From NCBI GenBank assembly GCA_900543485.1, contig UQRM01000002.1:1-64000 (forward strand): a DNA stretch of 64,000 bases, written 5' to 3'. The translations under genes were made by a program, and so were the position numbers. This document shows, piece after piece, positions 20,268 to 52,015 of this stretch (positions within the stretch are counted from its first letter, which is position 1; every line of letters begins with the position of its first letter). The notes beneath the pieces were generated by a model. It saw nothing but the letters and a program-made list of their open reading frames with translations. It was not told the origin of the DNA and did no database searches. This DNA comes from an uncultured Eubacterium sp. (GTDB lineage Bacteria > Bacillota > Clostridia > Peptostreptococcales > Anaerovoracaceae).

Positions 20268-20966
20268 TTACTTTATGCTTTCCGCGATCCTGAGACCGAG
20301 TTCTGTGAACCCGGTCTCATTCATGTATTCGATATCGATCTTTTCATATCTTTCTGCCAGACATACTGAGAATATATATCCTCCATACTCCCATGTATGC
20401 AGCTTTTCTGCGCGATCGTCGTCAAGCAGATTTACACCCGTCATCGTTTCCGACAGACCTTCTCCTGTATATTTGCCGTATGCCTCTTTTCTCGTCCATA
20501 CTTCAAAAAAGCGGCGGCAGCGCTGCTGACCACTCTCCGAAGCGTCGACGTATGCGATTTCGTCTTTATGGAAAGCCAGCTCCATAACATCAAAAGGCGG
20601 GGTATCGTTTTTTTCCACATCCGCCCCTACCATCCCTTCGGAGGATGATGCGCATATCACGCATTTTCTCGTATGCGACCAATTGAAGTGCAGTCCGTAA
20701 TCGTGCGAAAAATGCGGTTTTCCGTATTTCCCCGGACATATATCGACCGGCAGCTCCGCATCGCCGCGCAGTTGCCTCAGCTGCACGGCGCAGAGAAGCT
20801 CCGCGTACAGCGAAAGCTTTCTGTCTATGTCGTATCTATAGCGCTTGATCTTTTCTCTGCGCTTTTCCGAGACGCATCTCATCAGAAGCCTGTCGCGCTC
20901 TGTAAAAATATCGTTTTCAGCAAAAACGCAGCAAATATTTACCGTCATCATATCCCCCGGTGTCAT
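20268..20966 (-). CDS. Sfp-type 4'-phosphopantetheinyl transferase
   Basis: This 232-residue enzyme attaches the phosphopantetheine arm from CoA to carrier domains. The two diagnostic motifs are present: VGADVEK with metal ligands Asp116 and Glu118, and FFEVWTRKEAYGKYTGEGL with Glu155, Lys160 and Glu161. Length and motifs fit the broad-range Sfp group used for NRPS/PKS. It is the last gene of the operon, coupled to the KS-ACP-C gene by TGATG. An alternative ATG at 20948 has a GGGGG site and would give 226 residues. It should activate the eight carrier domains encoded upstream. Confidence 0.95.
   Translation of the reverse strand: MTPGDMMTVNICCVFAENDIFTERDRLLMRCVSEKRREKIKRYRYDIDRKLSLYAELLCAVQLRQLRGDAELPVDICPGKYGKPHFSHDYGLHFNWSHTRKCVICASSSEGMVGADVEKNDTPPFDVMELAFHKDEIAYVDASESGQQRCRRFFEVWTRKEAYGKYTGEGLSETMTGVNLLDDDRAEKLHTWEYGGYIFSVCLAERYEKIDIEYMNETGFTELGLRIAESIK
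20291..20319. other. Long hairpin inside the 3' end of the phosphopantetheinyl transferase gene
   Basis: TGAGACCG (20291-20298) pairs with CGGTCTCA (20312-20319), and GTTC pairs with GAAC inside, with a single A-C mismatch and a TGT loop. It has no T run. It lies in the convergent zone with the aldo/keto reductase gene, where no ordinary terminator is visible. Confidence 0.5.
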
Positions 20967-23900
20967 CAGTAAAACCTGAACGAATCTGCGCTGTCAGCGC
21001 TGTCATCCGCAGGTTCTGTCCGCTGCAGACTTCCTGCTGTCTCTTCCGGGCTATGGACGATCTGAGAGAGTATGTTCACATACTGTTCAGTGAAATCATC
21101 TATCGTACTCTCAAAGAACAGATCGGTGTTGTATTCCGCCATGATTTCCAGTTCATTTTCCTTCTCCACTAAATTATACGTCATTTCAAAATGTGAAGTC
21201 GACGGAAGCAGCGACTCCACCTGTGCGAAGCCTATGTCTTCAAGCGTCTTTCCCTGCCTTCCGTAATTCTGCATCACGAACGAATACTGGAACAGGGGCG
21301 AAAAGCCGGGAAGCCGTTCAAACTGCGTCCTGCTCACGACTTCTTCAAACGGAAGCTGCGTGTTCTGATATACATCTGCGATCCTTTCTGCATTCGCCTC
21401 TATGAAAGCCTCAAGGGTCTGCTGTCTGTCGATCCGGCTGCGTATGACCACCGTATTCGAGAAGAACCCTATCAGGCCCTGTGCTTCTGCCTGCGTACGA
21501 TTTGCTACGGGAACGCCTACACCTATGTCAGTCTGCCCTGTATAGAGGCACAGGTTCAGTGCATATGCCGATTCAAGCACCATGAACAGCGAAACAGCAT
21601 GCTTTCTGCTCCATCGCCTCAGCTCCTCCACGAGATTTTCCGGCACGCTGTAATGCTTGACGCTGCCGCTGAAGGTCTGAGCCGAAGGCCTTTTCTTATC
21701 CGTCGGGAATTTCAGAATGCCTGAAAAGCCGTCCAGTTCATCGTTCCAAAACCGCATCTGCTTCGCTGCTTCCTCCCCTTCAAGGAATCCGTTTTCCCAT
21801 GCAGAGTAATCCGCATACTGTATCTCCGGTATTTCCGGTCTGAGCTCCTTTTCCTGCATATACCCCTCGTAGTATTCGATGAATTCCTTCATGAATATGC
21901 CTACGGACCAGCCATCTGCCGCAATGTGGTGTACATTTACGAACCAGAACGCCGAATCTCCCGCATTTATCAGGCGATGCCTTACAGGCGGCTCTTCGTC
22001 CAGACGGAACGAGTACCTGCAGTCCTTCGCGAATTCCCTCATCAGCTCGCTCTCTCCTGCGTCCGGCCTGTCTTCATGCAGAAACGGAATCCTGTGATCC
22101 TCCCGTACCTTCTGATAATACTCACCATCCTCTTTTTTATAGACAGTGCGCAGTATTTCATGATTCGCCGCTATACGGTCTACCGATGCCCTGAAGGCTT
22201 CCGGATCGACCGGACCCTCTATGCGGAATAAATTGGGCATATTATACACGGAACCGTCCGGAATGCTCTCCAAGAGAAACAGCATTCTCCGCTGATTGTA
22301 CGACACCGGCATCCATTCACGCCTTGCCGCCGGATGAATTCTGTATACGTCAGCGATATCCTCCATATGCGCCTTGCCTTCGGAGCTGTTCAGAATACCG
22401 CAGATATGTTCTTCAAGCAGTTCTACAGTGCAGCAGTCAAATATCACGTCGAAATCCAGCTCTATCCCGAATCTCTTCTCAATGCTGCTGAGGATATTCA
22501 TCCCCATGAGTGAATTGGCCCCGAGATCGAACACATCTTCATCATCTCTCAGCGAATCGATATCCAGCTCTCTCATCCAGAGCTTTCTCAGAAACTCCTT
22601 AACGCTCAGTTCCTCATCCTCCGCCGCTTCCTCTCCTGTCTCCGCTCCGTTTACGGACTTCATCTTCCCCGGCCACACTTTGGTCTTGCTGAAAGGATAT
22701 GTAGGCAGATGACAGCGCCTGTGCTCCCCGGATCCATAATATCTGCTCCAGTCTATATCCGCCCCGCATTCATAGATAAAGGGCAGTATGCGGTCAACAG
22801 CGCGTTCCGGATCACCCGCAGCAGCAGGAACGAAGATCTTGTTCCTGCTGTCAACATGCGGGAGCAGCACTTCCTCTCCGCCCGTCTCTATATAGATGAT
22901 ATCTTCCTGCTCCTGGATTTTGGCGACGTAGCTTTTGAAGCCTTCACAGTCGAAGCTGTCGTCTCTGCTTTTCATGGATTCGATAGCTTCTCCGAAAGTC
23001 ACACCAGCCGTAATGCATGCCATCGCCGCGTTGCCTTTTCCCGCTCCGATAACCTTCCATAAGGATACTCCTTTTTCCTGCAGGCACCTGGCGAAGTCCA
23101 CTGCAAACTCAAGCTCCGCCTCATCGGATATCTTCGAGCACAACAGCACTGCTCTGCGCGCCGCCGCCTTTTGAACCTTTCCCACATCGGACAGCTTGCG
23201 TATCAGTTCATCGCGGTCGGACGCGTTGAAGGCCCGCCTGTAATCATAATCATCCCTTCCGCGGTTCAGTGTGTAGGAAACAGATCCGAGCGACGCTTCC
23301 CATGAGGCAGCAGACTCCGCGATCCTGCTGCAGTATCTGAGGAGTCCATCTTCCGTCTTTGCACTTACTGTAAACAGGTATGTTTCCGGCATCCTGTCTT
23401 CGTCAGCATCGCGCTCATACTCTTCCATAATCAGATGCACATTGGTACCGCTGATTCCGAACGCGCTTACCGCTCCCAGCTTCTTTCTCCCCCGCGGCCA
23501 CGAATCCTCTTCCACGGCCGGGTATACCATGGAATGTTCAAAATCGATGAAAGGATTTGGCGACTGAAAATCCCTCAGCGGGTATCGTCTGTCGTTTTTC
23601 ATCGATACGATCAGCTTTATCAGGCTGGCAATTCCGGCAGCAGCGCCCATATGTGCATAATTCGTCTTCAGGCTCCCCACGGGACAGATGCTCACCGCAT
23701 CCGTATACTCCCTGCATGCATCCGTGATCGCTGATATTTCTATAGGGTCTCCCAGCTTCGTCCCCGTGCCGTGGGCCTCGTAATAGCCTATTTCCTCCGG
23801 ATTTATGCCGCCTTTCTTCCACGTTCTGAGCAGCAGCTCCTTCTGCGCATCGCCGCTCGGCGCCGCCACGCTGTTTGACCTGCCTCCGTCCTGATTTGCC

Positions 23901-24667
23901 GCCGCCGATTTTATCACCGCCAGTATGGGATCATTATCCTTTTCCGCGTCCGCAAGCCTCTTTAAAAATACTATTCCTCCGCCTTCTCCGCCGTTGATGC
24001 CGTCTGCTCTCTGATCGAAAGCCCTGCAGTGCCCGTCCGGAGACGACAGTCCGTCATCTTCTCCCGTATCTTCGTATAGCTGAAGATCCAGAGTGACTCC
24101 GCCTGCGAGAGCCATATCGCATTCACCTGCGTTGAGCTGCATACATCCGTGATATACGGCATATAAGGAAGATGAGCATGCCGTTTCAAACACTGCAGCA
24201 TCGGCTCTCAGATCCAGAAGATAGGAAATCCTTCCGGCCATAGTGTCCTTGAGATTCCCCATTACGGAAAGCCCGCTGTTATCATCGAGCCAGTCGGCAT
24301 ATCTGCTGCTGTGGGCTCCCAGATATACTCCCGTACGGCTTCCCCTGATTTCCGAAAGGCTGTACCCGCTGTCTTCCACGGCGCCGCATGCCAGTTCCGC
24401 CGCTATCCTGTTCTGAGGGTCCATAAGGACTGCTTCGTGCTTTGAAATGTTGAAAAACTCGTGATCGAAATATTCTATTCCATCGAGATATGCCCTGCTC
24501 TTCACAGCCAGCTCATCCGGAATCCCAAACAGCGCCCTGCGTTCTTCGCTCATGGGACGCACGGCGTCGACTCTGCCGGAGAGGATTCGGTCAAGATCGT
24601 ATGCGTCTTCCGCCATGGGAAAGCGACCGCTCATTCCAATAACTGCAATCGGTTCAAAATTATGCAT
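20966..24667 (-). CDS. Hybrid PKS-NRPS subunit: KS-AT(degenerate)-ACP-C
   Basis: Domain order over 1233 residues: ketosynthase 5-430 (Cys164 in TACSSS, His299 in AHGTGT, His339 in TNYAH, where the usual Gly before His is Ala); a shrunken acyltransferase-like region about 505-640, in which the GHSxG serine motif has become GAGKGN (541-546) and cannot be catalytic; ACP 690-760 (Ser719 in DLGANS); condensation domain 785-1210 (HHIAADG, 913-919, intact). It should extend an acyl chain by one unit and then pass it to an amine or hydroxyl on another carrier. With its own AT dead, malonyl loading must come in trans, perhaps from the KS-AT-ACP subunit. It starts 16 bp after the C-A*-T gene. Confidence 0.92.
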   Translation of the reverse strand: MHNFEPIAVIGMSGRFPMAEDAYDLDRILSGRVDAVRPMSEERRALFGIPDELAVKSRAYLDGIEYFDHEFFNISKHEAVLMDPQNRIAAELACGAVEDSGYSLSEIRGSRTGVYLGAHSSRYADWLDDNSGLSVMGNLKDTMAGRISYLLDLRADAAVFETACSSSLYAVYHGCMQLNAGECDMALAGGVTLDLQLYEDTGEDDGLSSPDGHCRAFDQRADGINGGEGGGIVFLKRLADAEKDNDPILAVIKSAAANQDGGRSNSVAAPSGDAQKELLLRTWKKGGINPEEIGYYEAHGTGTKLGDPIEISAITDACREYTDAVSICPVGSLKTNYAHMGAAAGIASLIKLIVSMKNDRRYPLRDFQSPNPFIDFEHSMVYPAVEEDSWPRGRKKLGAVSAFGISGTNVHLIMEEYERDADEDRMPETYLFTVSAKTEDGLLRYCSRIAESAASWEASLGSVSYTLNRGRDDYDYRRAFNASDRDELIRKLSDVGKVQKAAARRAVLLCSKISDEAELEFAVDFARCLQEKGVSLWKVIGAGKGNAAMACITAGVTFGEAIESMKSRDDSFDCEGFKSYVAKIQEQEDIIYIETGGEEVLLPHVDSRNKIFVPAAAGDPERAVDRILPFIYECGADIDWSRYYGSGEHRRCHLPTYPFSKTKVWPGKMKSVNGAETGEEAAEDEELSVKEFLRKLWMRELDIDSLRDDEDVFDLGANSLMGMNILSSIEKRFGIELDFDVIFDCCTVELLEEHICGILNSSEGKAHMEDIADVYRIHPAARREWMPVSYNQRRMLFLLESIPDGSVYNMPNLFRIEGPVDPEAFRASVDRIAANHEILRTVYKKEDGEYYQKVREDHRIPFLHEDRPDAGESELMREFAKDCRYSFRLDEEPPVRHRLINAGDSAFWFVNVHHIAADGWSVGIFMKEFIEYYEGYMQEKELRPEIPEIQYADYSAWENGFLEGEEAAKQMRFWNDELDGFSGILKFPTDKKRPSAQTFSGSVKHYSVPENLVEELRRWSRKHAVSLFMVLESAYALNLCLYTGQTDIGVGVPVANRTQAEAQGLIGFFSNTVVIRSRIDRQQTLEAFIEANAERIADVYQNTQLPFEEVVSRTQFERLPGFSPLFQYSFVMQNYGRQGKTLEDIGFAQVESLLPSTSHFEMTYNLVEKENELEIMAEYNTDLFFESTIDDFTEQYVNILSQIVHSPEETAGSLQRTEPADDSADSADSFRFY

Positions 24668-24683
24668 AATCTCATATCCTTTC

Positions 24684-27008
24684 CTAAAAACTTACGCCTT
24701 CTGTTTCCCCTGAAGAAGCATCGCCGGCCTCCTCCTTAAAATACGCGGCCTGCTCCTGGATCGTATTGCATGAAAACAGCGCAGCTATATTTATATCTCT
24801 GTCAAACTCGCTGTTCAGCCTCTGAAACAGCTTGACAGCCAGCATCGAGTTTCCTCCCGCTTCGAAGAATTTATCGTATATCGAGAAATCATCCGACCCC
24901 AGGATATCGCTCCATATACTGTAGATCTTATCCTCGTCAGCGCTTCTCCTGCGCGCGGTATAAAACCGTATGCCCTCCCCGTGCGAACCTCCCGGCCTGA
25001 AGCCTATGGGAACGTTTTCGTTTCTTACGGCATGCCTTATATCCTCTATCGCATCGTCAGGCAGCGGCATATCCGATCCGGTGCAGAACACTACCCCGAA
25101 CCTTCCGTCATGTGCCTCCGCTATCTCGACAGCTGTGACGCCTTCTTCCTTTAAAATATGTTCTCTGATTTCCGCCGCCTTTAAGATATTTTCCCTTGCG
25201 CCTTCCCGTTCCCATCGATCCCTCGTCATCACCGCCAGCGGTTTTACAGGCAGCGTTCCGATATCTGCCTCCGTCCCGCTGCTGAGGATCACGTAGCCGC
25301 CCTTTGAAAGCCCTTCCGCTTTTACGAACACGCAGCGCGCATCGGGAACGTCGAGGGCTTCACGTACAGTCTCATTGAGCTCGCTGAGCGAAACCCTATG
25401 CCCGTCTATATCCACTGCATCCGACTTATCTTCATTTATCCTGAGCTGACCATCTTCCGTTATGCATCCGTACTGACCTGTATCTTCGAGACCGTTCTCT
25501 CCCATCATCACGATGCTGCCTTCAAACCCGTCCGGAAGCCGTCGTCCGGCCTCATCTGTGACTGCGATCTCCCCGGGCTTCATATCAGCCTGCTTCGTCG
25601 TCAGCTTTAAGTCCCTTACCTTTATATCCGGGGCTTCAAGAACCTGTCTGAGCATGAGCGTATATACATTCATCAGGGTTTTCATCCTCGCTTCATCATA
25701 CAGAGCTTCGTTGTATAAAAACTCCAGTTCTATTCTGTCCGGACTGTCATATACGGTAAAGCAGAAATCATATCTGAAGTCCTCATTTTCCCTTTCCTCA
25801 ATCGTTTCGACGGTGTACTCGGTGCCTCCTATGCTGATCGCTTCTCCCGAAGACACGCCGAGAAGGCTCCTGCTCTGAACTGCGAAGGAGATCTGGAACA
25901 GTGGATTGACTCCGTCCCTCCTCTTTATTTCCGCAGCTTCATACAGATCGCTCAGGGTTATATTCTGATGCTCTATTCCTGCAAAGAGCGTGTCCTGCGT
26001 CTTTTTCAGGTGCTGTTCGTACGTGTCGTCGGGGTCTATGTCGACCGGCAGCGCCACGGTGGTGGCAAAATCACCGATCGTCTCCATGTATTTCGGGTCT
26101 TCCCGTCCTGCCAGCGGCGTCCCTGTAATGAATGACGTGCTGCCTGTATATCTCCATATCAGCAGGCTGTATACCGACAGCAGCAGCGCGTGGACCGCGG
26201 TGCCCTTTTCCCTTGCCGCATCGTGAACTCTGCTGCTCAGGTCATCATCCACCATCGCTTTGAAAGGCCTCGCCGTCTGCGATAGCTTTCCTTTCCGCGG
26301 AAACACCGTCGGCGCCTCCAGGACATCCTCTCTGCCTCTTAAAATTCCTTTCCAGAATTCATAGTTTTCCCCATATCTCTCTCCTGCCTCTTCTGAACCG
26401 TTTGCCAGTACAAAGCTGCTGTATGGCTCATAACGCTTCACCTTCTGTTCCCGTCTGTCGAGATACGTAAAAAACTGTTTCAGAAAGACGCCTGCCGACC
26501 ATCCGTCGCATATGATATGGTGGATCGATACGAGAAGCAGCGCTTCATCTGCATTTTTCCGGATCAGCATAAAGCGCGCAGGCAGCTCTCTCCTCAGATC
26601 AAAGGGCCTTCGTATGAACTCGTCTTTCTTTATCCTCACATCTTCTTCCGTCCCGGCCTGCGACTCATCCAGATATTCGAATGAGATCTGCCCTTCTCTG
26701 TCTGTATACTGATATACGTTCCCGTCGAGTTCAGCGAATCTGTAACGAAACACATCGTGATCCTCCACGGTCTTCATGACGGCATCCCTGCAGGCCTGGC
26801 AGTCTACGCTGTTCTTCATATTGATCCGGAACATTATATTGTAGTACGGGTTCTCCCCTTCCTTTTCAAGACAGTATGACCACCACACTCCCTGCTGCTG
26901 CTTTGACAGCGGGTATATTCCATACTCCGCTCCGCTGGCGTTTATCCTCTCTATTGCGATCTTTTTCTTTTCCTCTGTAAGCGATCGGTACTTTTCGATT
27001 ATATCCAT
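24684..27008 (-). CDS. NRPS subunit: C-A(degenerate)-T
   Basis: This 774-residue protein has a condensation domain (about 30-455, HHIICDG at 163-169 intact) and a C-terminal carrier domain (690-757, Ser721 in EAGGNS). Between them, instead of a 500-residue adenylation domain, are about 215 residues that keep only A-domain-like C-terminal pieces (LPDGFEGSIV, then DGQLRINEDKSDAVDIDGH); the ATP-binding motifs are gone. So this module can form a bond but cannot activate its own amino acid; its carrier must be loaded in trans. I chose the ATG at 27008 (GGGGG upstream), 2 bp after the preceding gene; the frame is also open to 27035. Confidence 0.88.
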   Translation of the reverse strand: MDIIEKYRSLTEEKKKIAIERINASGAEYGIYPLSKQQQGVWWSYCLEKEGENPYYNIMFRINMKNSVDCQACRDAVMKTVEDHDVFRYRFAELDGNVYQYTDREGQISFEYLDESQAGTEEDVRIKKDEFIRRPFDLRRELPARFMLIRKNADEALLLVSIHHIICDGWSAGVFLKQFFTYLDRREQKVKRYEPYSSFVLANGSEEAGERYGENYEFWKGILRGREDVLEAPTVFPRKGKLSQTARPFKAMVDDDLSSRVHDAAREKGTAVHALLLSVYSLLIWRYTGSTSFITGTPLAGREDPKYMETIGDFATTVALPVDIDPDDTYEQHLKKTQDTLFAGIEHQNITLSDLYEAAEIKRRDGVNPLFQISFAVQSRSLLGVSSGEAISIGGTEYTVETIEERENEDFRYDFCFTVYDSPDRIELEFLYNEALYDEARMKTLMNVYTLMLRQVLEAPDIKVRDLKLTTKQADMKPGEIAVTDEAGRRLPDGFEGSIVMMGENGLEDTGQYGCITEDGQLRINEDKSDAVDIDGHRVSLSELNETVREALDVPDARCVFVKAEGLSKGGYVILSSGTEADIGTLPVKPLAVMTRDRWEREGARENILKAAEIREHILKEEGVTAVEIAEAHDGRFGVVFCTGSDMPLPDDAIEDIRHAVRNENVPIGFRPGGSHGEGIRFYTARRRSADEDKIYSIWSDILGSDDFSIYDKFFEAGGNSMLAVKLFQRLNSEFDRDINIAALFSCNTIQEQAAYFKEEAGDASSGETEGVSF

Positions 27009-27010
27009 TG

Positions 27011-33902: not shown

Positions 33903-33920
33903 ATGTATCACCTCGCTCCT

Positions 33921-42900: not shown

Positions 42901-45900
42901 GCCCTTTTCATCTCAGCCGCATGCCCCCTTACGAGGTCGTAGAACATGTCGTATGTCAACGCATCATTGCCCTGGACCGCAGCGATACGGCTCCCGAATT
43001 TTCGCCTTCCCTCCGCCAGCAGTTGGCCCAGTGTCATGTTTCCCAAATCCATCCTCACGTTATTGATGCGTTCCGCGGCCTCTCTGGCTTCCGGTACATC
43101 GAGCCCCGCCGCCTCGTGCCACGCTTCCTCCCTTTCGCCAAGCTGCTTCAGCCGCGATACGAAGGCCCTGACCATATTCTCCGCCACCCCGTCTTCAAAC
43201 AGGTTATCGACGCAGTCCCAGCTGAACTCTATCCGGTCATTGCAGTACTGCGCGACGGCATCTATCCATACCTGACTCGTATGGGTCATGACAAAGGTCT
43301 TTTTGAAGTGCTTCTGCTCCACCGCCGGAATGTCAAGCAGACTTGTAAATACCACGGGGATCGAATAATCCCCTACGCTGCCCTTCATCTGTGAGATCTT
43401 TCTCTGCACGTCTATCCCCGTATAGCTGTCGTGTTCCATGAGCAGCGCCAGCTCTCTCCGGTTTCTCTCAGCTTTTTCTATGAAGCTGCTCCTGCTGTGC
43501 TCCATAGCGAACAGGAAAAAGGAGGCGCACTCTCCCACCGTATTGTCCGCCATTCCTCCGGCTGCCATCCTGTTAAAGGTCGGCACGTTGATGCAGAAAT
43601 CCTTTTTTTTGCTCCAGGCTCCGACCACCTCTCCGAATGCAGTCAGAAGGCCTGTAAAGGACGTGAACCCGAATTTCCTGCACGCGGCTTCAAACCTGTT
43701 CCACTCATCCTTCGACAGGGTCCCCGTATGCTTGCACACTTCTATGGTCTCTGCGCCTTTTCCCGTCTGCTTCATCGGAAGCGCAGGCGCCTCCGGAAGC
43801 TCCGGGATTTTTTTCAGCCAGAAAGCCTCGCTTTTCCTGTATTCAGCCGTATGCCTTCTGCTCTCCATAAATTCCACGTAGTTTCTGAACAGAAGCGGAG
43901 TATCCGGCATGTCACGCGCAATGTCTTCGTAAAAATACTCCATGTCGCGCATGAGCAATTCCAGGCTCCATCCGTCGATAATGAGACCATCGGAGTAAAA
44001 GTGTATCAGAGCTCTTTCGCCTCCCAGAAGCGAGACCCTTACAGTCACGAGGGATTCCCTGAAACAGTCCCTCGCCATGCCGCTCATCTCTCTGCGGATT
44101 TCCTCGACTCTGCGCTGCTGCTCTTCCTGCGGCAGGGAAGACAGATCTTCCTCATCGATCCTGACATCGTAATGTTCCATGACGAACTGCCTTCCGTCTT
44201 CGAGAAATCTCGCATGGAGCATATCGTGACGCTCCATCAGCTTTTTTACGGCGCAGAGAAATCTCGAAGAGTCGTAGTCTTCGCATGTGAATTCGATATA
44301 GCTGTGGGTCGGCACCTGCCCCAGGTGCATTTCCCCTCTCCTTCCGACGAAATAGGCCTGCTGCATCTGACTGAGGTTGAAAGGCTCGTATCTCTCTTTG
44401 AGATCGAGGGCGGGAACACGTCGCTCGTCGCCTTCCGGCGTTTCGTCATTGTGCGCTCTCTCTGCGATTTTCATGCACATGGCCCTTACCGATGGCTCCG
44501 CCGTCATCTCGGAAAAAGCGATCGCAGGCTCTCCGCTCCTGTTCCACTCCGAAATCAGCCTCATGGCCTGAATCGAATTGCCGCCTGCCTGGAAGAAATC
44601 GTCCGTAACGCCGAATTTGTCAGTCCCAAGTACATCTCTCCACAGCCTCCACATTTTCTCTTCCCGCTCGTTTTCCGGTTTGAGCAGCTCGGAAGCGCGG
44701 ATGCCGGGAACCGGGAGCTTTCTGTAGTCTATCTTGCCGTTGAGGGTGAGAGGTATTTCCTGCAGATGTACGAAATATTTCGGTATCATAAACGGAGGCA
44801 GCGTTCTTTTCAGTTCATCTCTCAGCCATGCTTCAGACAGCTCCGGATTCCCGGTATAGTAGGCGCACAGAGCCTTCTGTCCGTCGTTTCCGGAGATCGC
44901 GCTGACCACCGTGCTTTCAACGCCCCCGATTGCGGACATCACCGCTTCGACTTCTTCCGTCTCGATACGAAAAGCGGAAATCTTCACCTGATTGTCGATC
45001 CTTCCCGCAAAGTCGAGGTTTCCGTCGGGAAGCCATCTTGCGATATCCCCGGAACGATAGACTCTTTTCTCCTCCAGAAGGTCGCTGGAAAAGAATACGC
45101 TGTCTGTAAGCTCTCTGTTATTGATATATCCCTCGGCAAGCCTGCCGCCGCCGATCCACAGTTCCCCCGGGACGCCTTCCGCCTGCCTCCTTCCGTACTG
45201 ATCTACGATGTATACCGCCGTATTGCCAAAAGGTCTTCCGATCGGTATGCTCTTATACCCCCTGTCCACTTCGAATATAGTGGTGGACACCGTATTCTCC
45301 GTCGGCCCGTAATTGTTGAGGAGCCTGTACGGGCTTGTTTTCCTGAAGGCTTTAAGCTTATCTCCTCCTGTGATCATCACCTTCAGAAACTCATTGTCAT
45401 ATCCCTGCATCTGCTCGCATACCTGGGTAGGCAAGGTCACATGCGTGATGCGCTTTTCACGCATGAAATCGCTGAGGCCGTCCAGATCGGTTCTCAGCTC
45501 TCCGGGCATATTGACTACCGCAGCTCCCCTCATCCAGAAAGGGAATACTTCCAGTACCGACGGATCGAATCCCACTTTGACGTAACGCAGACTTCTGCTT
45601 GTTTCATCTATATCGTATATATCGCTGCTGCTGCAGAGTTCCATCAGAGCCCCGTGGGACACCGCCACGCCTTTGGGCTTTCCCGTCGTCCCCGATGTGT
45701 ATATCGCATACGCTGTATCTTCAGGGCCTACGACTGCACCGACCGGCTGTTTCGAAAGCTCCTCCGTCCTGTATCCGCTGCTGTCCATGCATATGATTTC
45801 CCTGAGATTTGCGCATGCCTGTTGAAGCTTCAAGAGCTCTGCCATGTTTTTCTCAAGGCAAAAGACCACCGAAACATCCGCATCCTCTATGATCTGTCTC

Positions 45901-46883
45901 GTTCTCTCTGCCGGAAGCTCTTCATCTATCGGAATGTACGCACAACCTGCCTTCTGGATCCCCACGATCGCCACGGCCTGATCTATGCAGTTATCCATAT
46001 ACACTCCGACATATCCGCCTCTCACCCCCAGATGGCTGTACAGCTTCTGCGCGACCTGATTAGTCCTTTCGTCAAATTCACGATATGTGAGCCTGACATC
46101 TCCTTCCTCGACGGCCGTATTGGAAGCGTAAGCAACTGCGTGCTCTCTCATGACATCTATTACCGTCCCGCTGATACAGCCATGCGGCTCGCCATGCTCC
46201 ATCCCTTTTATCCTTTGGATCTCGCTGTCTGACAGCACCTCCACTTCGGACAGCCTCGCACTGCCGTCACAGGCCATGAATTTTCTTATCTGCGAAGCGA
46301 TGCTGTCGATCGTGCCTTCGTCATACAGTTCTTCTGCAAAACCGCATCTGACGCTCCCCTTCTCGCTGCATAAGTAAAACACCACATCGGCATCATACGT
46401 ATCCTGCGCTTCCGGATAGAGCCCATCCTCCCGTATTATTGTCTTCAGCCCCGGGACGTATTCGTTTCCCTTCATTTCAAAATGCTCGAGAGCTTCGCTG
46501 AAAGTTTCGCTGTGGTTCAGCGCTTCTTCCCTCCTGGCTGCGATCTGTCGCTTCAATTCCGCAACCTGCATATCCGCCGACAGATTTGCCACATATCCTG
46601 TAAGCGCCGCTCCCTTTTGACTTTCTTTTCCTGCCGACAGACCGATCATGACATCGTTCTTCATCAGGTTTTTAGACATCACAAAGCTGACGGCCGCGGC
46701 GAAGCTGACAGCAAAGGGCCACTTCCCATCTGAAGCGAAATCGCCTCCGCCCGTACCGAGGTCGATATACGTCTGTGTTCTTTCCCTCAACGGCGTCACC
46801 CTCGGCCTGTCCGTATAAAATCCATCCGATTCATACGTTTCGCCCAACACCGTATTCCAGTATTCCAAATCTTCTCTTCTCAT
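39945..46883 (-). CDS. NRPS: C(truncated)-A1-T1-Cy-A2-T2-C
   Basis: This 2312-residue synthetase starts with only the C-terminal lobe of a condensation domain (1-225, no HHxxxDG), typical of an initiation module. A1 240-725 (YTSGTTGKPKG near 395-405, NYGPTEN); pocket residues by eye D-P-L-T-I-G-N-V, substrate unassigned. T1 735-805 (Ser770). Heterocyclization domain 830-1255 with DGLIIDGWS (965-973), the DxxxxDxxS signature. A2 1285-1775; pocket by eye D-M-Y-N-I-G-V-L-W, close to cysteine-type pockets. T2 1790-1860 (Ser1826). C 1885-2300, HHILVDA (2016-2022; Gly replaced by Ala, His and Asp kept). It should make an aminoacyl-thiazoline (oxazoline if A2 picks Ser/Thr) and hand it on. Confidence 0.93.
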   Translation of the reverse strand: MRREDLEYWNTVLGETYESDGFYTDRPRVTPLRERTQTYIDLGTGGGDFASDGKWPFAVSFAAAVSFVMSKNLMKNDVMIGLSAGKESQKGAALTGYVANLSADMQVAELKRQIAARREEALNHSETFSEALEHFEMKGNEYVPGLKTIIREDGLYPEAQDTYDADVVFYLCSEKGSVRCGFAEELYDEGTIDSIASQIRKFMACDGSARLSEVEVLSDSEIQRIKGMEHGEPHGCISGTVIDVMREHAVAYASNTAVEEGDVRLTYREFDERTNQVAQKLYSHLGVRGGYVGVYMDNCIDQAVAIVGIQKAGCAYIPIDEELPAERTRQIIEDADVSVVFCLEKNMAELLKLQQACANLREIICMDSSGYRTEELSKQPVGAVVGPEDTAYAIYTSGTTGKPKGVAVSHGALMELCSSSDIYDIDETSRSLRYVKVGFDPSVLEVFPFWMRGAAVVNMPGELRTDLDGLSDFMREKRITHVTLPTQVCEQMQGYDNEFLKVMITGGDKLKAFRKTSPYRLLNNYGPTENTVSTTIFEVDRGYKSIPIGRPFGNTAVYIVDQYGRRQAEGVPGELWIGGGRLAEGYINNRELTDSVFFSSDLLEEKRVYRSGDIARWLPDGNLDFAGRIDNQVKISAFRIETEEVEAVMSAIGGVESTVVSAISGNDGQKALCAYYTGNPELSEAWLRDELKRTLPPFMIPKYFVHLQEIPLTLNGKIDYRKLPVPGIRASELLKPENEREEKMWRLWRDVLGTDKFGVTDDFFQAGGNSIQAMRLISEWNRSGEPAIAFSEMTAEPSVRAMCMKIAERAHNDETPEGDERRVPALDLKERYEPFNLSQMQQAYFVGRRGEMHLGQVPTHSYIEFTCEDYDSSRFLCAVKKLMERHDMLHARFLEDGRQFVMEHYDVRIDEEDLSSLPQEEQQRRVEEIRREMSGMARDCFRESLVTVRVSLLGGERALIHFYSDGLIIDGWSLELLMRDMEYFYEDIARDMPDTPLLFRNYVEFMESRRHTAEYRKSEAFWLKKIPELPEAPALPMKQTGKGAETIEVCKHTGTLSKDEWNRFEAACRKFGFTSFTGLLTAFGEVVGAWSKKKDFCINVPTFNRMAAGGMADNTVGECASFFLFAMEHSRSSFIEKAERNRRELALLMEHDSYTGIDVQRKISQMKGSVGDYSIPVVFTSLLDIPAVEQKHFKKTFVMTHTSQVWIDAVAQYCNDRIEFSWDCVDNLFEDGVAENMVRAFVSRLKQLGEREEAWHEAAGLDVPEAREAAERINNVRMDLGNMTLGQLLAEGRRKFGSRIAAVQGNDALTYDMFYDLVRGHAAEMKRAGVKPGDVVAIAIEKSFDQLAATVAAVMTGAVYLPLDVHLNEERIRYCIEEAGSKAAVFDSDTKHLMKNISENVRSYNADEVTPPDGGCELHVESRTMDDLFCIIYTSGSTGRPKGVMIQQRGLINALLYTNRYYDVTEDDKVLTVTNLSHDMSMYDLFGMLIAGGCIVLPDKRDVKNPKHWIELINRHGVSIWNSAPALMEMMLEIMSLENISGLQTVRLAIMGGDVMRKTVPASLWKHNPDMKVVNVGGPTETTLWNIHHEVTREDLERNRIPYGLPMANTKYYILNEILEICPVYTEGIMYVEGVGVTRGYLNDEEQTAAKYITNPYTGNRMYCTGDVGRYLESGEIDIIGRDDLQIKINGKRIELEEIEQVVYENKDIAFAAAVLLREENAISLYCRCISDIREEDVRKELEKKLPDYMLPKYITFIESVPLSRNGKVDRKALAQIRISNAAAEVTRDDEYVTDGERKLIALYNRVIGTQRTMPESNFFSLGGDSLKAIKLLYEVNSEFNTALTLTDIFNNPSVRGLASYIQTISEEDMDKLTIRKCQDTGGIPLGLAQEGIWFVNRSVEDQDCGQRYNLVGSMEIGASLDVENFAEAINKTVDCCRGLRAEIYEDDYRPYQRTVDELTIDLTCEDRSGESAEDVRRSFEDEEMRRRYVLEKAPLFNFRLGRAEEGIYVFTMGIHHILVDAYSVNLILRKIKEIYFDLEEGRNREYAEDVSFQDFASWQTDAYRDGLFDGDIDYWKEKLAGELTRIELSETELSTWDHFEGGVCDLPLDADELSRLKELCSNMEMTVFAGLTTIYYMFLAWLCGADDICLGSASSGRVRSEIRSTVGNFANVLLLRTTVRPDDSFSSLARRVKETMDGAYAHQSLPFEKVAERACLSYEYRDLPYKLLIDYIDLEDDSRRGIFGDFEYTRQLSAADLDLFIQSVNDEFQFQFYYKKRLFAEDEIEEFAGLIQDILSAAVEAPDKPWNDYDL

Positions 46884-46901: not shown

Positions 46902-47663
46902 TCATCTGAGATGCGTTTCTATTCTCCGCTTTAAATCTCTGCAGAGCTCTTCTTTCCTGTCTTTGATAAAAAAATGCCCGCCTGCGAATTCCATCATGCT
47001 GAATTCCGAAAGGGTGTATTTTTCCCAGCTTCTCGCCTGGGTACTGCCTGCCATCCTGTCTTCGGTCCCGTAATACACGTGGACGGGAGCCTCGATACGC
47101 CGGCTTCTGTTTATACTGTAGCTTTCAATCAGCTTAAAATCCTGTCTCAGGATCCTGATATACAGGTCCAGATATTCCGGATAATCCCAGAGCTCCTTTT
47201 CCAGACCGCCATACCTGTTTACTTCTTCTATAAATTCATCCTCGGGGAGGCTGCTGATTCCCGCCTCCGATATATCTTCATCAAGGCTTGTGGCCGATAC
47301 GAACACCTTCTCCGCCTGCAGTCCCATTCTGTCTTCTATCGTCTGTTCAAACTTGTATGCCAGCATACCGCCCATGCTGTGTCCGAACAGAAAGAAGGGT
47401 ATGTCTCTCAACAGCGGTTCCAGGCCTTTGAAAAGGCTTTCCGTAAGAACCTCCGCATCGGTAACAAAGTCTTCGTTTATACGGTTTTCCCTTCCCGGCA
47501 GCTGTACCGGAACCACCTCTATGCTGTCTCCCATCAGGCTTTTCCAGGCTGCATACTGACTGGCGCCTCCACCTGCGAAAGGAAAACATATCAGCCGGCA
47601 CTGCGGGCAGCGTTTCGGGGTCCTGAACTGAACCCATCCGTCGAATTCACTTTTTGCCGCCAT
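46902..47663 (-). CDS. Type II thioesterase
   Basis: This 253-residue alpha/beta hydrolase is a free-standing editing thioesterase that clears wrong or stalled groups from carrier domains. It has the oxyanion-side motif FPFAGGGAS (27-35), the nucleophile Ser96 in GHSMGG, an Asp-containing GTEDRM and the His in GGHFF near the C-terminus, the order of the GrsT/TE II family. GAGG lies 9 bp before the ATG. It sits 4 bp after the CCR gene and 18 bp before the NRPS. No subunit carries a fused terminal TE; release is more likely by the reductase domain. Confidence 0.94.
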   Translation of the reverse strand: MAAKSEFDGWVQFRTPKRCPQCRLICFPFAGGGASQYAAWKSLMGDSIEVVPVQLPGRENRINEDFVTDAEVLTESLFKGLEPLLRDIPFFLFGHSMGGMLAYKFEQTIEDRMGLQAEKVFVSATSLDEDISEAGISSLPEDEFIEEVNRYGGLEKELWDYPEYLDLYIRILRQDFKLIESYSINRSRRIEAPVHVYYGTEDRMAGSTQARSWEKYTLSEFSMMEFAGGHFFIKDRKEELCRDLKRRIETHLR

Positions 47664-47667
47664 GAGT

Positions 47668-48915
47668 CTACGCCTCTTTCCCCGCGGCTCCGATCAGCGC
47701 CACTGCGTTTCCACTGGTGGTATTGTTCTCATACATGGACTGCTGGCATTTTGATATTTCGTCGAAGGTGACTATTTCGCCTACTGAGACAGGCAGCCCC
47801 TTTTCCACCAGAAGCCTGAGATACTCCTTTCCCTCCTCCAGCACTGCCGCGTGGGAACCCTGAAGACGTTTGAGGTTGAGCCACAGATATCTCAGATCCA
47901 GCGTCCCTAAGAATCCCGTTGTCGCTCCGCAGATGACCACCATGCCCTTCTCGGCGCACAGAAACATCGATGTGGGCAGAGTGTCCCTCCCCGGATGCTC
48001 GAGAATTATGTCCGGATTTCTCTCCTCTCCGACCACTTCCCATATTCTTTTCCTCATCTTCAGGACATTGCGTATCCATCTGTTGTAGGCCTTTTTATCA
48101 CCGTAGAGGTCCTCTGTCAGCATACCCCAGTGATCATAGTCGCTTCTGTTTATGAACCCCTTAGCTCCCAGCTCCATGCACTGTCTTCCTCTGTCATCGG
48201 AGGATACTACCGCCACAGGGATGCCGCCCATTGCCTTTACGATGGGAATGGCGCTGCTGCCGAGTCCGCCCGCTCCGCCCCATATCAGCACGACATCGCC
48301 TTCTTTGATCCTGTTGCCCTCCCAGTGCGTAAGCATGCTGTATATCGTTCCGCCTGTCGCCGTGCATCCTGCAGCCTGTACCCATGTCAGCTCTTCAGGC
48401 TTGATAAGGCACTGCACGTCTTTAACTTTCGAGAACTGAGCGAAAGCGCCGAAGTTGCCTTCGTATCCCCAGATTCTGAATGTGGGGCTCACTCTCGGGT
48501 CTCTGGTCTTCCTGTATACCGGGCATGTTTTATCATACTGGATGCCCGTGCATATTACCTCATCTCCCACGTTAAAATCCGTCACATTCTTCCCCGTTTT
48601 ATATACGATCCCGCTCGATTCGCTTCCGCATATGAGGAATCCCCGTTTTTTCTCGTACCGCTGATGCGCATATATTACGTTTCGCGGCGTTCCCAGCGCC
48701 GCCCAGACTCCGTTGTAATTTATCCCGCAGGCCATATTGCACACCAGCATCTCGTCATCGCCTATTTCCGGCACATCTACTATCTCTTTTCTGAAAGCAT
48801 GCTCCGGCTCGCCAAGCCTGTCTTCCCGCAGAGTCCATGCGTACATTTTTTTCGGAATCACCCCGAGAGGCGGTACCTGTCCCACCTCATACAATTCTTT
48901 CGCTTTTTCTCTCAT
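47668..48915 (-). CDS. ccr: Crotonyl-CoA carboxylase/reductase family enzyme
   Basis: The 415-residue medium-chain reductase has the CCR hallmarks RIWGYEGNFGAFAQF, AAGCTATGGTIYSML, the NADPH loop GGAGGLGS (213-220), NRSDYDHWG and EHPGRDT. Aligned by eye to the CO2-holding residues described for Kitasatospora CCR (Asn81, Phe170, Glu171, His365) are Asn68, Tyr151, Glu152 and His307; only the Phe is changed, to Tyr. CCRs reductively carboxylate enoyl-CoAs to alkylmalonyl-CoA extenders. It is encoded between the exporter and the thioesterase, so it most likely supplies the PKS AT. It might instead only reduce enoyl thioesters. CCRs are unusual in Clostridia as far as I know. Confidence 0.88.
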   Translation of the reverse strand: MREKAKELYEVGQVPPLGVIPKKMYAWTLREDRLGEPEHAFRKEIVDVPEIGDDEMLVCNMACGINYNGVWAALGTPRNVIYAHQRYEKKRGFLICGSESSGIVYKTGKNVTDFNVGDEVICTGIQYDKTCPVYRKTRDPRVSPTFRIWGYEGNFGAFAQFSKVKDVQCLIKPEELTWVQAAGCTATGGTIYSMLTHWEGNRIKEGDVVLIWGGAGGLGSSAIPIVKAMGGIPVAVVSSDDRGRQCMELGAKGFINRSDYDHWGMLTEDLYGDKKAYNRWIRNVLKMRKRIWEVVGEERNPDIILEHPGRDTLPTSMFLCAEKGMVVICGATTGFLGTLDLRYLWLNLKRLQGSHAAVLEEGKEYLRLLVEKGLPVSVGEIVTFDEISKCQQSMYENNTTSGNAVALIGAAGKEA

Positions 48916-48935
48916 TTTAACTATCCTTCTGTCCC

Positions 48936-51158
48936 CTATTCCGTTCTTTCCTTTAACTCCGAAACCATATTCACACGCGTCACCTTGCCTTTAAGCACGG
49001 ACAGCGAAGCGAAATATGCGAAACACAGCAGTACCAGACAGATCAGCAGGCTCATCGGTGCGATATGCGCTTCAATGTACATGGAAAAGCTCTCGACCGT
49101 GTCCGCAAGAGCTGCCGTGCAGATTGCAAGCCCGAAAGGTATGCTCAGCAAAAATCCTATCGGAACAAGTATATGGTTCATGTTCAGCAGCATGCCGTTG
49201 ATCTCCTTCTTTCTGAACCCCAGTATCTTGAGCATGGTGATCGTGTAGCGGTTTTCCTCTATGATCATATTTACCGTAAGATATGTCACCGTGAAGCCAA
49301 TGGCGATACCGAGGATGATAAGTATATACATTACCATCATGACCGGCCCCAGGTAGTTTTCCAGCGATGTCCGCATGGAATCCTTGGAACGCTCCGAGAG
49401 GATCTCGCTTTCCGGATAATCCAGTTCCCTGTCGGACATGACAGCGGTGTAGAACCCGGCGTCAAGACCCAGGATCTCAGCCGCATTGTCAAGGCTCGTA
49501 TACAGCGCCACCTGCGTATTGTCGTCGATAATATCGCTTACAGTAACTGTCGTCTTCTCCATAGTTGCCGGATTGAAAAATGTGAATTTATCTCCCGCCT
49601 CTACTCCGTAGGTAGTTGCCGCCGCCATCGTCATATAATAACCGCCGTATTCCGCATCGTTTCCGGATACGGTGTTCAGGTTCACGAATTTCGAATCCTC
49701 CTCTATCCCGCTTAATCCGAATGAGACGTCGCTGCCTTCCACCTCAAAGGTTCCCGAAACGAAAGGCTCGCCATCCTCTATCTCTTCGCTCCTTGGCGAT
49801 GTGAAGTAATACTGGTACTGATACGAACCTGCGTTTTCAAGCCCCTTCTCTATGATATATTCGCAGGAATCCTTCATGACGAAGCCTGCGATCAACGATG
49901 TTCCCGCAATCATAAGCCCCAGGCACGCTATTATCGTTCTTCCGGGGTTGAGCAGCAGTCCGCGGATCTTAAACTTCGTTCGTGCCCGGATGTTTGAATG
50001 AGACAGCGCTTTCTTCATCTTGCTCAGATTCAGCCCCACATTTCCCCGCAGCAGCTCCTTGCTTGGATTTCTGAGCATTTTCATGACGACGAAATACGCT
50101 GTCAGCACGTATAAGACCGTAGGGATCAGAAGTCCTGCCAGCATGCTGGCCGTGTTGTATGCCATTTCATACGGTACCGGTTCGAAATCGGTGAAAGTCA
50201 TATATGTATATCCCCTGGCAAAAGGGATGCCGGCTGCTATTCCCAAAAGGCTTCCTGCAATACCTGGGACCGCGGCAAACTTCATATAGTGCGCTGCGAT
50301 CTCCCTCTTCCTGTATCCGAGAGCCATGAGAACGCCGATCTGCTTCTGCTCACGTTTAAGCGTCCTCCCCAGGGTCAGTGTGATGATCAGCATAATGAGA
50401 ACGAACAGCACTGCGGAAATCATAACCCCCATGCTGCTGTAATTCTCACCCTGCACCTCGGTGTATTTTATCCTGGTGTTCGCATAGTCCGCAGTATAGC
50501 TGGTCATGTCGTATTCATCGTGCAGGCATTTTCTCACTTCCTGAGCGTTGTCTTCGCCATATCGTATGGAATAATACAATCCCGGGTTATCGAATTTGTC
50601 GAATGCCTCTTTGCTCACGATGGCCAGACCGAAGTCCTTGTTGTTGACATATGTCTCCTGCCCGTTTTCAAGCATATAGACGTAATCGCCGCGGATGCAG
50701 TATCCCGTGATCCTGTACTCATCGCCTTCGATCTCTATGCTGTCGCCTATGTCGTATCCGTTTTCCTTCGCAAAGTTTTCAGTCAGCAGTATCTCATCTG
50801 CTCCATCCGCGTCCTGCCCTTCAGTAACGACATATCTGTTGACCTTCTCCGTTTTCTGAAATACGCGGACAGTCTTGTCATTTTCGCCGCTCTCTATATA
50901 TTTCTGTTCTTCAATGGTGACATTATATTTATCTTCCACGTCTCTGATGTCATCGCTGTTCATGGGCACAGCCGTATAATACTTGCCCTGCTCCACCTTC
51001 GTGCCCTTGAGGAATTCGTCCATGGTGTTGTTCAGAGTATCTCCCGTGGAAATGGATGCGATCAGAAAGGAAACCGTGAAAACGGTCAGCAGTATGCTGG
51101 ATATATAGAATGATCTGTTATGTCCGATGTTTCGAATTATGCGTTTGTTTATCTTCAT
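48936..51158 (-). CDS. MacB/FtsX-type ABC permease (740 aa)
   Basis: The protein has an N-terminal membrane helix (about 17-36), a large extracellular region, an FtsX core of three helices (about 240-360), another helix near 405-430, a second extracellular region and a final FtsX core (about 615-720). This two-FtsX layout is typical of Gram-positive antimicrobial-peptide and lipopeptide transporters. Its ATG overlaps the ATPase stop by one base, and the CCR gene begins 20 bp after its end. It is probably the export or self-protection system for the cluster product. Confidence 0.9.
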   Translation of the reverse strand: MKINKRIIRNIGHNRSFYISSILLTVFTVSFLIASISTGDTLNNTMDEFLKGTKVEQGKYYTAVPMNSDDIRDVEDKYNVTIEEQKYIESGENDKTVRVFQKTEKVNRYVVTEGQDADGADEILLTENFAKENGYDIGDSIEIEGDEYRITGYCIRGDYVYMLENGQETYVNNKDFGLAIVSKEAFDKFDNPGLYYSIRYGEDNAQEVRKCLHDEYDMTSYTADYANTRIKYTEVQGENYSSMGVMISAVLFVLIMLIITLTLGRTLKREQKQIGVLMALGYRKREIAAHYMKFAAVPGIAGSLLGIAAGIPFARGYTYMTFTDFEPVPYEMAYNTASMLAGLLIPTVLYVLTAYFVVMKMLRNPSKELLRGNVGLNLSKMKKALSHSNIRARTKFKIRGLLLNPGRTIIACLGLMIAGTSLIAGFVMKDSCEYIIEKGLENAGSYQYQYYFTSPRSEEIEDGEPFVSGTFEVEGSDVSFGLSGIEEDSKFVNLNTVSGNDAEYGGYYMTMAAATTYGVEAGDKFTFFNPATMEKTTVTVSDIIDDNTQVALYTSLDNAAEILGLDAGFYTAVMSDRELDYPESEILSERSKDSMRTSLENYLGPVMMVMYILIILGIAIGFTVTYLTVNMIIEENRYTITMLKILGFRKKEINGMLLNMNHILVPIGFLLSIPFGLAICTAALADTVESFSMYIEAHIAPMSLLICLVLLCFAYFASLSVLKGKVTRVNMVSELKERTE

Positions 51159-51856
51159 TAGAATTCCAGCTCCTCAACACTTTTCTTATCATTATTGGCG
51201 GTGTTTGATATGACTTTTCCGTCTTTTATGCGCGTAATACGGTCGGCCATGTGCTGGATCTCCTCGTTATGTGTTACGATAATAACAGTGGTGCCGAACT
51301 GCTCGTTTACCCTGGCGATGTATTTAAGAACCTCCTTGGATGATCTCGTATCAAGGGCTCCCGTAAGCTCATCGCAGAGCAGCAGTTGGGGATTTTTGAT
51401 CAGCGCCCGGGCAATCGCCACCCTCTGCTGCTGTCCTCCCGAAAGCTCCCTTGGGAAACGGCTCACATACTGTCCCATCTCCAGCGCTGCAAGGACGTCT
51501 TCGACAGACAGCGGATTTTTGGAAATATCTGCCACTACCTCGATGTTCTCCCTGACTGTCAGATCAGGTATCAGATTGTACGACTGGAAGACAAAGCCTA
51601 TATCCGATCTTCTGTATTCCGTCAACTGCTTCTGGTCCGCATTTTCAAGAGCTTTGCCGTCGACGCGCAGCGTCCCCGAATCCATGGTGTCGAGGCCTCC
51701 TATGATATCCAGAAGGGTGCTTTTTCCCGATCCCGACGGGCCCAGTACCACGCATATCCCGCCTTTTTCCAACTGAAAGTCGGCCCCGTCGAGGGCGTAT
51801 ACCAGCGCGTCGCCTTTACCGTATTTTTTTACCGCATTCTTGATTTCTATAAACAT
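51158..51856 (-). CDS. MacB/LolD-type ABC ATPase
   Basis: First gene of the biosynthetic operon. The 232-residue ATPase has Walker A (GPSGSGKST), signature LSGGQQQR, Walker B (LLLCDELTGALD, with Leu where Pro is usual) and a switch His (VVTHNEE). The ATG at 51856 follows AGGTGG; a GTG-initiated extension to 51925 would read through a leader hairpin and is unlikely. It pairs with the adjacent FtsX permease. Confidence 0.93.
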   Translation of the reverse strand: MFIEIKNAVKKYGKGDALVYALDGADFQLEKGGICVVLGPSGSGKSTLLDIIGGLDTMDSGTLRVDGKALENADQKQLTEYRRSDIGFVFQSYNLIPDLTVRENIEVVADISKNPLSVEDVLAALEMGQYVSRFPRELSGGQQQRVAIARALIKNPQLLLCDELTGALDTRSSKEVLKYIARVNEQFGTTVIIVTHNEEIQHMADRITRIKDGKVISNTANNDKKSVEELEF

Positions 51857-51900
51857 ATTCCACCTGCATGATACATCATGCCCTCCGTTAACTTCGTGCA

Positions 51901-51919
51901 CGCCGGAAGGTTCCCGGCG
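51901..51919 (-). other. Leader hairpin of the biosynthetic operon
   Basis: CGCCGG (51901-51906) pairs with CCGGCG (51914-51919) around a 7-nt loop in the untranslated leader, about 45 bp before the first start codon. No T run follows. Confidence 0.45.
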
Positions 51920-51941
51920 CTTCACAGCTTTCTCAAAATAG

Positions 51942-51958: not shown

Positions 51959-51960
51959 GA

Positions 51961-51974
51961 TTAGTGTACACTAA
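51961..51974. promoter_or_regulatory. Main operator of the biosynthetic operon
   Basis: TTAGTGTACACTAA is a perfect 14-bp palindrome just downstream of the -10 element, covering roughly +6 to +20 of the predicted transcript. Length and symmetry fit a dimeric TetR/MarR-type repressor. The regulator gene is not in the window. Confidence 0.75.
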
Positions 51975-51986
51975 CTCAACGGCGAC

Positions 51987-52015
51987 ATTATACTTCTTTC
52001 CCATATTGCGGTCAA
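51987..52015 (-). promoter_or_regulatory. Promoter of the biosynthetic operon
   Basis: On the minus strand TTGACC (52015-52010) and a consensus TATAAT (51992-51987) are spaced by 17 bp. All twelve downstream genes are separated by at most 20 bp or overlap, so this is probably the only promoter. Confidence 0.85.

Follow-up and report, generated by a model that had tools for sequence, protein, structure and literature searches.

A 64,000-nucleotide stretch of DNA from an uncultured Eubacterium sp. (contig UQRM01000002.1, positions 1 to 64,000; referred to here as the window) carries twelve open minus-strand frames (20268-51925) within a 32-kb operon, designated g1 to g12. These genes can be explained as an intact assembly line of hybrid nonribosomal peptide synthetase (NRPS)/polyketide synthase (PKS) type, the product of which would be a small depsipeptide-polyketide, released reductively and exported. 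The favoured order of working is g5, g9, g8, g10, g11 and g6, and a rough probability of 0.48 is assigned to this reading as a whole. The chemistry of the single domains is fairly secure, whereas the substrate of the ligase domains, the order of the modules and the loading of one carrier are less so. The genes are as follows, where A, C, Cy, T, KS, AT, KR and R denote adenylation, condensation, cyclization, carrier, ketosynthase, acyltransferase, ketoreductase and reductase domains, and the prefix psi denotes a decayed domain.

51158..51925, minus strand: g1, ABC transporter ATPase, listed with a GTG start
48936..51158, minus strand: g2, FtsX-type permease of 740 residues (Pfam/NCBIfam)
47668..48915, minus strand: g3, crotonyl-CoA carboxylase/reductase (CCR), closest solved relative AntE
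46902..47663, minus strand: g4, free-standing (type II) thioesterase (Pfam/NCBIfam)
39945..46883, minus strand: g5, NRPS, psiC(1-225)-A1-T-Cy-A2-T-C, with A1 code DPLTIGNVSK and A2 code DMYNIGVLWK
33921..39929, minus strand: g6, psiA-(StsA/McyG-type ligase)-KR-T-R, terminal reductive module
33606..33911, minus strand: g7, free-standing carrier protein with an Arg-rich C-terminal tail
30620..33616, minus strand: g8, KS-AT-T, AT motif NRAGH
27011..30610, minus strand: g9, (StsA/McyG-type ligase)-KR-T, without a C domain
24684..27035, minus strand: g10, C-psiA-T, no AMP-binding domain recognized
20966..24667, minus strand: g11, KS-psiAT-T-C, no AT recognized by Pfam
20268..20966, minus strand: g12, phosphopantetheinyl transferase (Pfam/NCBIfam)

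Pfam and NCBIfam models identified the ABC and FtsX proteins, the thioesterase, the phosphopantetheinyl transferase, two KS, one full AT and two KR domains, together with eight PP-binding and four AMP-binding domains in the operon. The active-site Cys is kept in both KS domains, the AT of g8 carries GHSxG, the C domains show HHxxxDG (g10 and g11) or HHxxxDA (g5), and the Cy domain of g5 shows DxxxxDxxS as DGLIIDGWS. The carrier Ser motif was located by motif search in seven carriers and by eye in the eighth (LGFDSL in g8), and the KR and R motifs were likewise read by eye in the translations. KS, C and A domains and carriers with live motifs are accordingly found in one cluster with a phosphopantetheinyl transferase, in agreement with the hybrid NRPS/PKS operon of a Clostridia that had been proposed from the sequence alone. 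The domain inventory of that sequence-only reading was also reproduced (eight carriers, two KS, one live and one dead AT, two live and two decayed A, two ligases, two KR, one Cy, three C and one R), to which is added one decayed C domain at the start of g5, spanning approximately residues 1-225, in which no HHxxxD was found. Its assignment of a reductase for product release stands as well: the C-terminus of g6 scored 234.2 bits against TIGR01746 (cut-off of 213.35) and contains Tyr-x3-Lys as YNETK. The active-site stretch of the g8 KS, YACASS, is unusual and is common to two of the related clusters described below (G001 and G002); that of g11 is TACSSS.

Structure prediction for the psiA of g6 gave an uninformative model (mean pLDDT of 38.9). 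The psiA of g10 with its carrier gave a moderate fold (73.3), and the Foldseek list obtained with it was headed by A-carrier structures, with McyG first (E = 4.6e-11). The TM-scores were only 0.17-0.32, and most top rows match just the carrier part; an origin of this remnant from an A domain is supported, but not proven.

In the proposed scheme, the chain would be started by A1 and Cy-A2 of g5, with closure of a Cys-derived thiazoline. The ligase-KR-T units of g9 and g6 would each load an alpha-keto acid and then reduce it to an alpha-hydroxy acid, the hydroxyl groups of which would be acylated by the terminal C domains of g5 and g11. The CCR (g3) would supply alkylmalonyl-CoA, either ethylmalonyl-CoA from crotonyl-CoA or a bulkier unit, and this would be loaded by the AT of g8 for one ketide extension. 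A second ketide would be added by the KS of g11, the decayed AT of which would be replaced in trans. Finally, the R domain of g6 would release an aldehyde, possibly further reduced to an alcohol. From the product predicted previously, the thiazoline and the aldehyde or alcohol end are kept, and hydroxy acids are proposed in place of the acyl cap.

This replacement follows from the identity of the two ligase domains. The name acyl ligase given to them previously is probably wrong, given that their closest solved relatives are McyG and StsA and not fatty acyl-AMP ligases. The best solved match to the whole of g9 was Protein Data Bank (PDB) entry 6ULW (StsA; 412.5 bits in two stretches, the KR contributing), followed by McyG (4R0M, 364.4 bits) and the A domain of StsA (6ULX, 305.3 bits). 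Further down the list were entries with the name "Polyketide synthase" (7R7E-G, 170-172 bits, considered by name only), and the first match named as a fatty acyl-adenylate ligase was 3PBK, with 122.6 bits. When the ligase parts were compared alone, McyG (350.0 bits for g9 and 379.8 bits for g6) ranked ahead of 6ULW (315.4 and 318.8 bits) and 6ULX (309.5 and 309.9 bits). A fatty-acyl ligase was dropped as the first choice on the basis of this ranking of solved relatives.

The 6ULW record bears the title "Adenylation, ketoreductase, and pseudo Asub multidomain structure of a keto acid-selecting NRPS module," and the protein is described as an A-KR-T initiation module (PMC11253843; papers given here by PMC number are cited from excerpts). 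The same source names two marks of keto-acid selection, namely a hydrophobic residue replacing Asp235 (I306 in StsA) and Met replacing Pro after Gly414. Both are present in g9 and g6, as Ala at the place of Asp235 and as Gly-Met (FGM). StsA, from a cereulide-type synthetase of Bacillus stratosphericus, resembles g9 in its ligase-KR-carrier layout, in the hydrophobic residue and in Gly-Met, but belongs to a depsipeptide-type NRPS; the hybrid line of the window combines two units of this layout, of which one is ended by a reductase. McyG, of the microcystin pathway, differs from both g9 and g6 in being an A-T didomain with no KR in it.

Two observations speak against a keto-acid substrate. McyG, for which PMC11253843 lists Phe as substrate, ranks first for both ligases alone and also has Val and Gly-Met at the two places; the marks therefore do not prove a keto acid. 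In addition, CAL domains recur beside KR domains in depsipeptide clusters, and the choice of keto acid by HcaB has been assigned to the A domain that precedes the CAL domain, the latter being perhaps non-functional (PMC10949194). In the window, the A domain that precedes the CAL-like domain has lost its core in g6 and is missing in g9, so that, contrary to PMC10949194, the CAL-like domain alone could do the work. Given the adjoining KR and the 6ULW layout, an alpha-keto acid is the likeliest substrate of the g9 and g6 ligases. The relatedness to McyG and StsA and the presence of a KR after each ligase likewise make ester-linked hydroxy acids more probable than a fatty-acyl cap. The alternative is that both are ordinary acyl- or aminoacyl-AMP-type ligases (fatty, aryl or McyG-like) and that a capped lipo- or arylpeptide is made. 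Such a view is in line with McyG as the best solved relative and with the best NCBIfam families for g9, long-chain ligase (260.9 bits, cut-off of 572) and fatty acyl-AMP ligase (244 bits, cut-off of 600), both of which are far below cut-off. By contrast, StsA is a near-equal match, a named fatty acyl-adenylate ligase scores far lower, and a KR directly after each ligase would be needless for a fatty or amino acid starter. We consider this alternative improbable.

Related clusters were sought in a scan of genome contigs, which kept 79 loci; eleven of these (L001-L011) were compared with the window genes, and 68 were left out. A matching gene set is held by three of the eleven, all from Clostridia (L001-L003). 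The genomes concerned are metagenome-assembled genomes (MAGs) designated G001 (Clostridiales, JAATFT010000080.1), G002 (Ruminococcus, JAFYGE010000011.1) and G003 (Ruminococcus, CALMUA010000070.1). In G001 (L001), 11 of the 12 window gene types are found in nearly the same order: ABC, FtsX, CCR, A, Cy-T, Cy-A-T, thioesterase and T-C, followed by psiA-ligase-KR-T-R, T, KS-AT-T, ligase-KR-T, C-T and KS-psiAT-T-C. The thioesterase is placed among the NRPS genes, and no phosphopantetheinyl transferase match was seen in the 39 kb read. The front NRPS of G001, with its aryl-type A and Cy, differs from that of the window. In G002, the genes from the CCR to the g11 counterpart follow one another as in the window, and ABC and FtsX are found at the opposite end. 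Its front NRPS comprises an A domain, a methyltransferase-T protein and a Val-type A domain, and so differs from the A1-T-Cy-A2 of the window; the methyltransferase-carrier protein (L088:3145-4965) has an IDDLF-type tail like that of g8. The 27-kb contig of G003 contains FtsX, KS and AT-T as two open reading frames (ORFs), ligase-KR-T, two C-T genes and a thioesterase, then a front NRPS of A-T-Cy-A-T-C, a thioesterase and the CCR; no counterpart of the g11 KS or of R was seen on it. Pfam agrees for eight front proteins of the relatives.

The cluster is rare, although not a singleton; its relatives, which keep an almost fixed gene order, are scattered over Bacillota. At E = 1e-150, a model of g9 matched G001 alone among the 391 genomes sampled in its class (none of the 390 others), G002 alone among 297 in its family and 3 of 398 in the phylum, where the two besides G001 match in much larger ORFs. 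The matches at L092-L094 (G530 and G698) lie within ORFs of 2798-4990 residues. Two to four of the g6, g9, g11 and CCR homologues appear to stand together in Paenibacillus popilliae, Paenibacillus sp. MER 180 and Lachnospiraceae ZAX-1, and the same clustering is indicated in Clostridium saccharoperbutylacetonicum, Wukongibacter and P. dendritiformis. For these six, we infer clustering from equal longest-contig values of the homologues (785802, 344519, 274992, 6550301, 6417986 and 42249, respectively). In Streptomyces and Kibdelosporangium (L004, L006 and L008), KS-psiAT-T-C, C-A-TE (TE, thioesterase) and ligase-KR-T are combined, and these are possible distant depsipeptide lines.

The homologues also bear on whether g9 and g6 take the same acid. 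The pocket stretch after the ATP loop is (S/A)GGEAN in g9 and in most of the 16 rows of one sequence set, and ATAEAN in g6 and in 7 of the 13 rows of another (the window and its near-copy P0016 included). In the g6 ligases of G001 and ZAX-1 (rows P0023 and P0020), the stretch is GGEAN, as in g9. This suggests two different acids for g9 and g6 in the window and elsewhere perhaps one acid used twice. In the tree of ligase domains, 11 of the 26 inner branches are unresolved and several are long; nearest neighbours alone were taken from it.

The extender unit was approached through g3 and the AT of g8. The g3 protein scored 456.7 bits against TIGR01751 (cut-off of 378.55) and 417.7 bits over nearly its full length against its best solved match, AntE, with which it has the NYN, WGYE and GSH stretches in common. 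It is predicted to carboxylate and reduce, yielding alkylmalonyl-CoA. Two AntE entries differ at one visible residue, GSHVAS in one and GSHAAS in the other, and g3 has Ala here. A change of AntE V350 broadens the substrate range (PMC6164871); if this is the variable site, bulkier enoyl-CoAs might be accepted by g3. A count of the GSH pattern over 120 CCRs strikes other sites in some rows and was not used. The motif N(R/K)AGH is found in the AT of three of the four clusters examined, including NRAGH in g8, and RASH is found in G003. The form xAGH is known as an ethylmalonyl AT motif. Malonyl ATs carry HAFH and methylmalonyl ATs YASH (PMC6164871, in excerpts of which the term AGH was not found). 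Given a CCR in the operon and an AT motif that is neither HAFH nor YASH, an alkylmalonyl extender is indicated, a point that goes beyond the sequence-only reading.

Codes for the A domains of g5 were read after eight A domains had been aligned with MAFFT, the positions being set by motif. The A1 code has no clear match. The A2 code, DMYNIGVLWK, has close counterparts in G001 (DMFNIGVIWK) and G003 (DMYNIGVIWK). The Cys code is DLYNLSLIWK, to which A2 is identical at 5 of 10 positions, with Gly in place of Ser and the others mostly alike; the incomplete match counts against a Cys assignment. A probable Cys-type A domain behind a Cy domain agrees with the sequence-only reading. The best solved matches of A2, scored in one stretch, were 6LTA (299.9 bits) and BmdB of bacillamide (291.9 bits), both of which come from Cy-containing modules. 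The free-standing A domain of G001 has the code NFNSAGVICK, of aryl-acid type, identical at 6 of 10 positions to a salicylate code.

The order of the modules rests on the C domains. These end g5 and g11, and the ligase-KR-T units of g9 and g6 lack one. Because g6 ends in R, it should be last. If the C domain of g5 served g6 directly, g7 to g11 would have to precede g5. The free-standing aryl-type A domain of G001 could not take over an upstream chain, so the counterpart of g5 should come first in that cluster, and in G003 the ligase-KR-T unit is, apart from the first module, the sole carrier unit seen without a C domain, with one terminal C to pair with it. Both observations favour g5 as the start. 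The alternative order, which has the same chemistry, is that g9 starts, A1 of g5 receives the chain from the C domain of g11, and the C domain of g5 hands it on to g6 for release by R. Here, g9 is laid out like 6ULW, which is called an initiation module (PMC11253843), the decayed C domain of g5 would be well explained by the C domain of g11 taking its place, and only 15 bp separate g5 from the adjacent g6, which makes transfer between them the simplest join. The first A domain lacks a C domain in G003, however, and in G001 it stands alone and is of the aryl-acid type; we regard a start at g9 as unlikely, though a serious competitor.

Beyond the points just given for g9, further findings weigh against the g5-first scheme. 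No trans-loading enzyme for the carrier of g10 or g11 was found in the operon, and no A domain paired with the g10 carrier was found in the window, G001, G002 or either G003 copy. A trans-loading or a non-loading role is therefore needed for the g10 carrier. G002 lacks a Cy domain, neither ligase nor KR is present in its g6 counterpart, and its counterpart of the g11 KS is divided between two ORFs. The KS-AT-T counterpart of G003 is split as well, and the carrier Ser motif is missing from one of its two copies of C-psiA-T. The four decayed domains (psiC, two psiA and psiAT) and the split KS-bearing genes of two relatives would also suit a partly degenerate line that no longer makes its product. 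Yet all twelve window frames are open with live motifs intact, and the psiA and psiAT remnants are kept in G001 with the same neighbours, so their decay is of long standing and tolerated. Loss of the product is, on balance, highly improbable.

Several known systems share parts with the operon. A stretch of Tistrella mobilis plasmid pTM3, which came up in the plasmid search and which we take to be the didemnin cluster from the strain and plasmid (the record is without annotation), offers a further hint as to the role of the ligases: it resembles the window in having KS..T-C, then ligase-KR-T, then KS..T, and its ligase matched that of g9 with 268.8 bits. No CCR or R match was obtained in the 43 kb profiled, and the gene order and domain set of this stretch differ from those of the operon. 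Didemnin contains a hydroxyisovaleryl propionic acid unit (PMC5577590), and its line has 11 NRPS and 2 PKS modules (PMC10811503). As regards the antimycin line to which AntE belongs, the remainder differs from the window operon. The NRPSs of gut Clostridia that make dipeptide aldehydes have, like the window, a terminal thioester reductase in an anaerobe; they are not known to contain PKS, CCR or KR modules.

Among the matches listed, titles and abstract openings in the literature gave no description of the cluster or of a relative; a study of C. saccharoperbutylacetonicum clusters reportedly exists and could mention one. The operon is intact and conserved, its parts are of known kinds, and the combination, which is new to us, is apparently undescribed. 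We suggest tentatively, as a possibility well short of probable, that it is a branch of an undescribed family, patchily distributed in Bacillota, whose depsipeptide-polyketides end in an aldehyde and combine a conserved back half with a front cap that can be exchanged. If so, the back half would consist of a hydroxy acid, a CCR-fed ketide, a second ketide, a hydroxy acid and the reductase, and the caps would be an amino acid-thiazoline (window), an aryl-thiazoline (G001) and a methylated peptide (G002), amounting to a fixed warhead with swappable recognition heads. The operon would bring together, in one line, an extender supplied by the CCR, two modules for hydroxy acids and release by reduction, and would help to settle the role of the CAL domains beside KR that is left open in PMC10949194. 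Few polyketide or hybrid products are known from anaerobes. In the protein database, the cluster of the CCR of the window bacterium represents 33 contigs, and since the relatives include named isolates (C. saccharoperbutylacetonicum and Paenibacillus), a product could be looked for by ordinary gene deletion.

The distances between successive genes from g1 to g12 are -1, 20, 4, 18, 15, 9, -11, 9, -25, 16 and -1 bp, in exact accord with the gaps of at most 20 bp or overlaps noted earlier. This spacing points to co-transcription of all twelve genes. The true start of g1 may be the ATG at 51856, MFIEIKNAVKKYG, although this is a guess, and g1 and g2 together probably form an exporter. Two features lie upstream of g1.

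52047..52081, minus strand: terminator-like hairpin of 15 pairs, separating the upstream genes from the operon
51987..52015, minus strand: promoter-like site TTGACC-17-TATAAT, with 11 of 12 consensus positions

Position 52015, at which the sequence-only reading ended the operon, is where the -35 box begins. The promoter-like site is strong, yet the scan counts by themselves prove little: 3 promoter-like sites were found vs 0.8 (standard deviation of 1.0) in shuffled sequences, and 1 terminator-like site vs 0.7 (standard deviation of 0.7). At the 3' end of the operon (19900-20500), no match to a promoter or to a terminator was obtained. The overlaps of g7 with g8 (33606-33616) and of g9 with g10 (27011-27035) recur in G001 and G002. 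Basic tails were seen by eye in the 24 listed g9 relatives and in both g7 relatives. A reading of these as docking tails was not used: the window tail lies on a purine-rich stretch before an overlapping gene, so the overlap alone may explain it.

The operon's neighbours apparently include pyr, mnmA, nifS and pst-type genes, with RidA-, MnmA- and NifS-type genes upstream of the hairpin, and tRNA-Gly was the only RNA element found. Plasmid carriage was considered and set aside, a near-identity search of 20268-45267 (25 of ~32 kb) against plasmids having given no match. Convergent with g12 and beyond it, 19203-20246 on the plus strand encodes an aldo/keto reductase with ferredoxin-type (4Fe-4S) domains, which could in principle act on an aldehyde. 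A free-standing ketoacyl synthase of 485 residues is encoded at 56142-57599 on the plus strand, 4 kb upstream of the operon, and a KS-like gene is also present beyond the CCR of G003. The window belongs to Gallibacter sp. Marseille-QA0791, a member of a Clostridia genus, or to a near twin of it: the g9 protein matches protein P0001 of that name with 100% identity from end to end.

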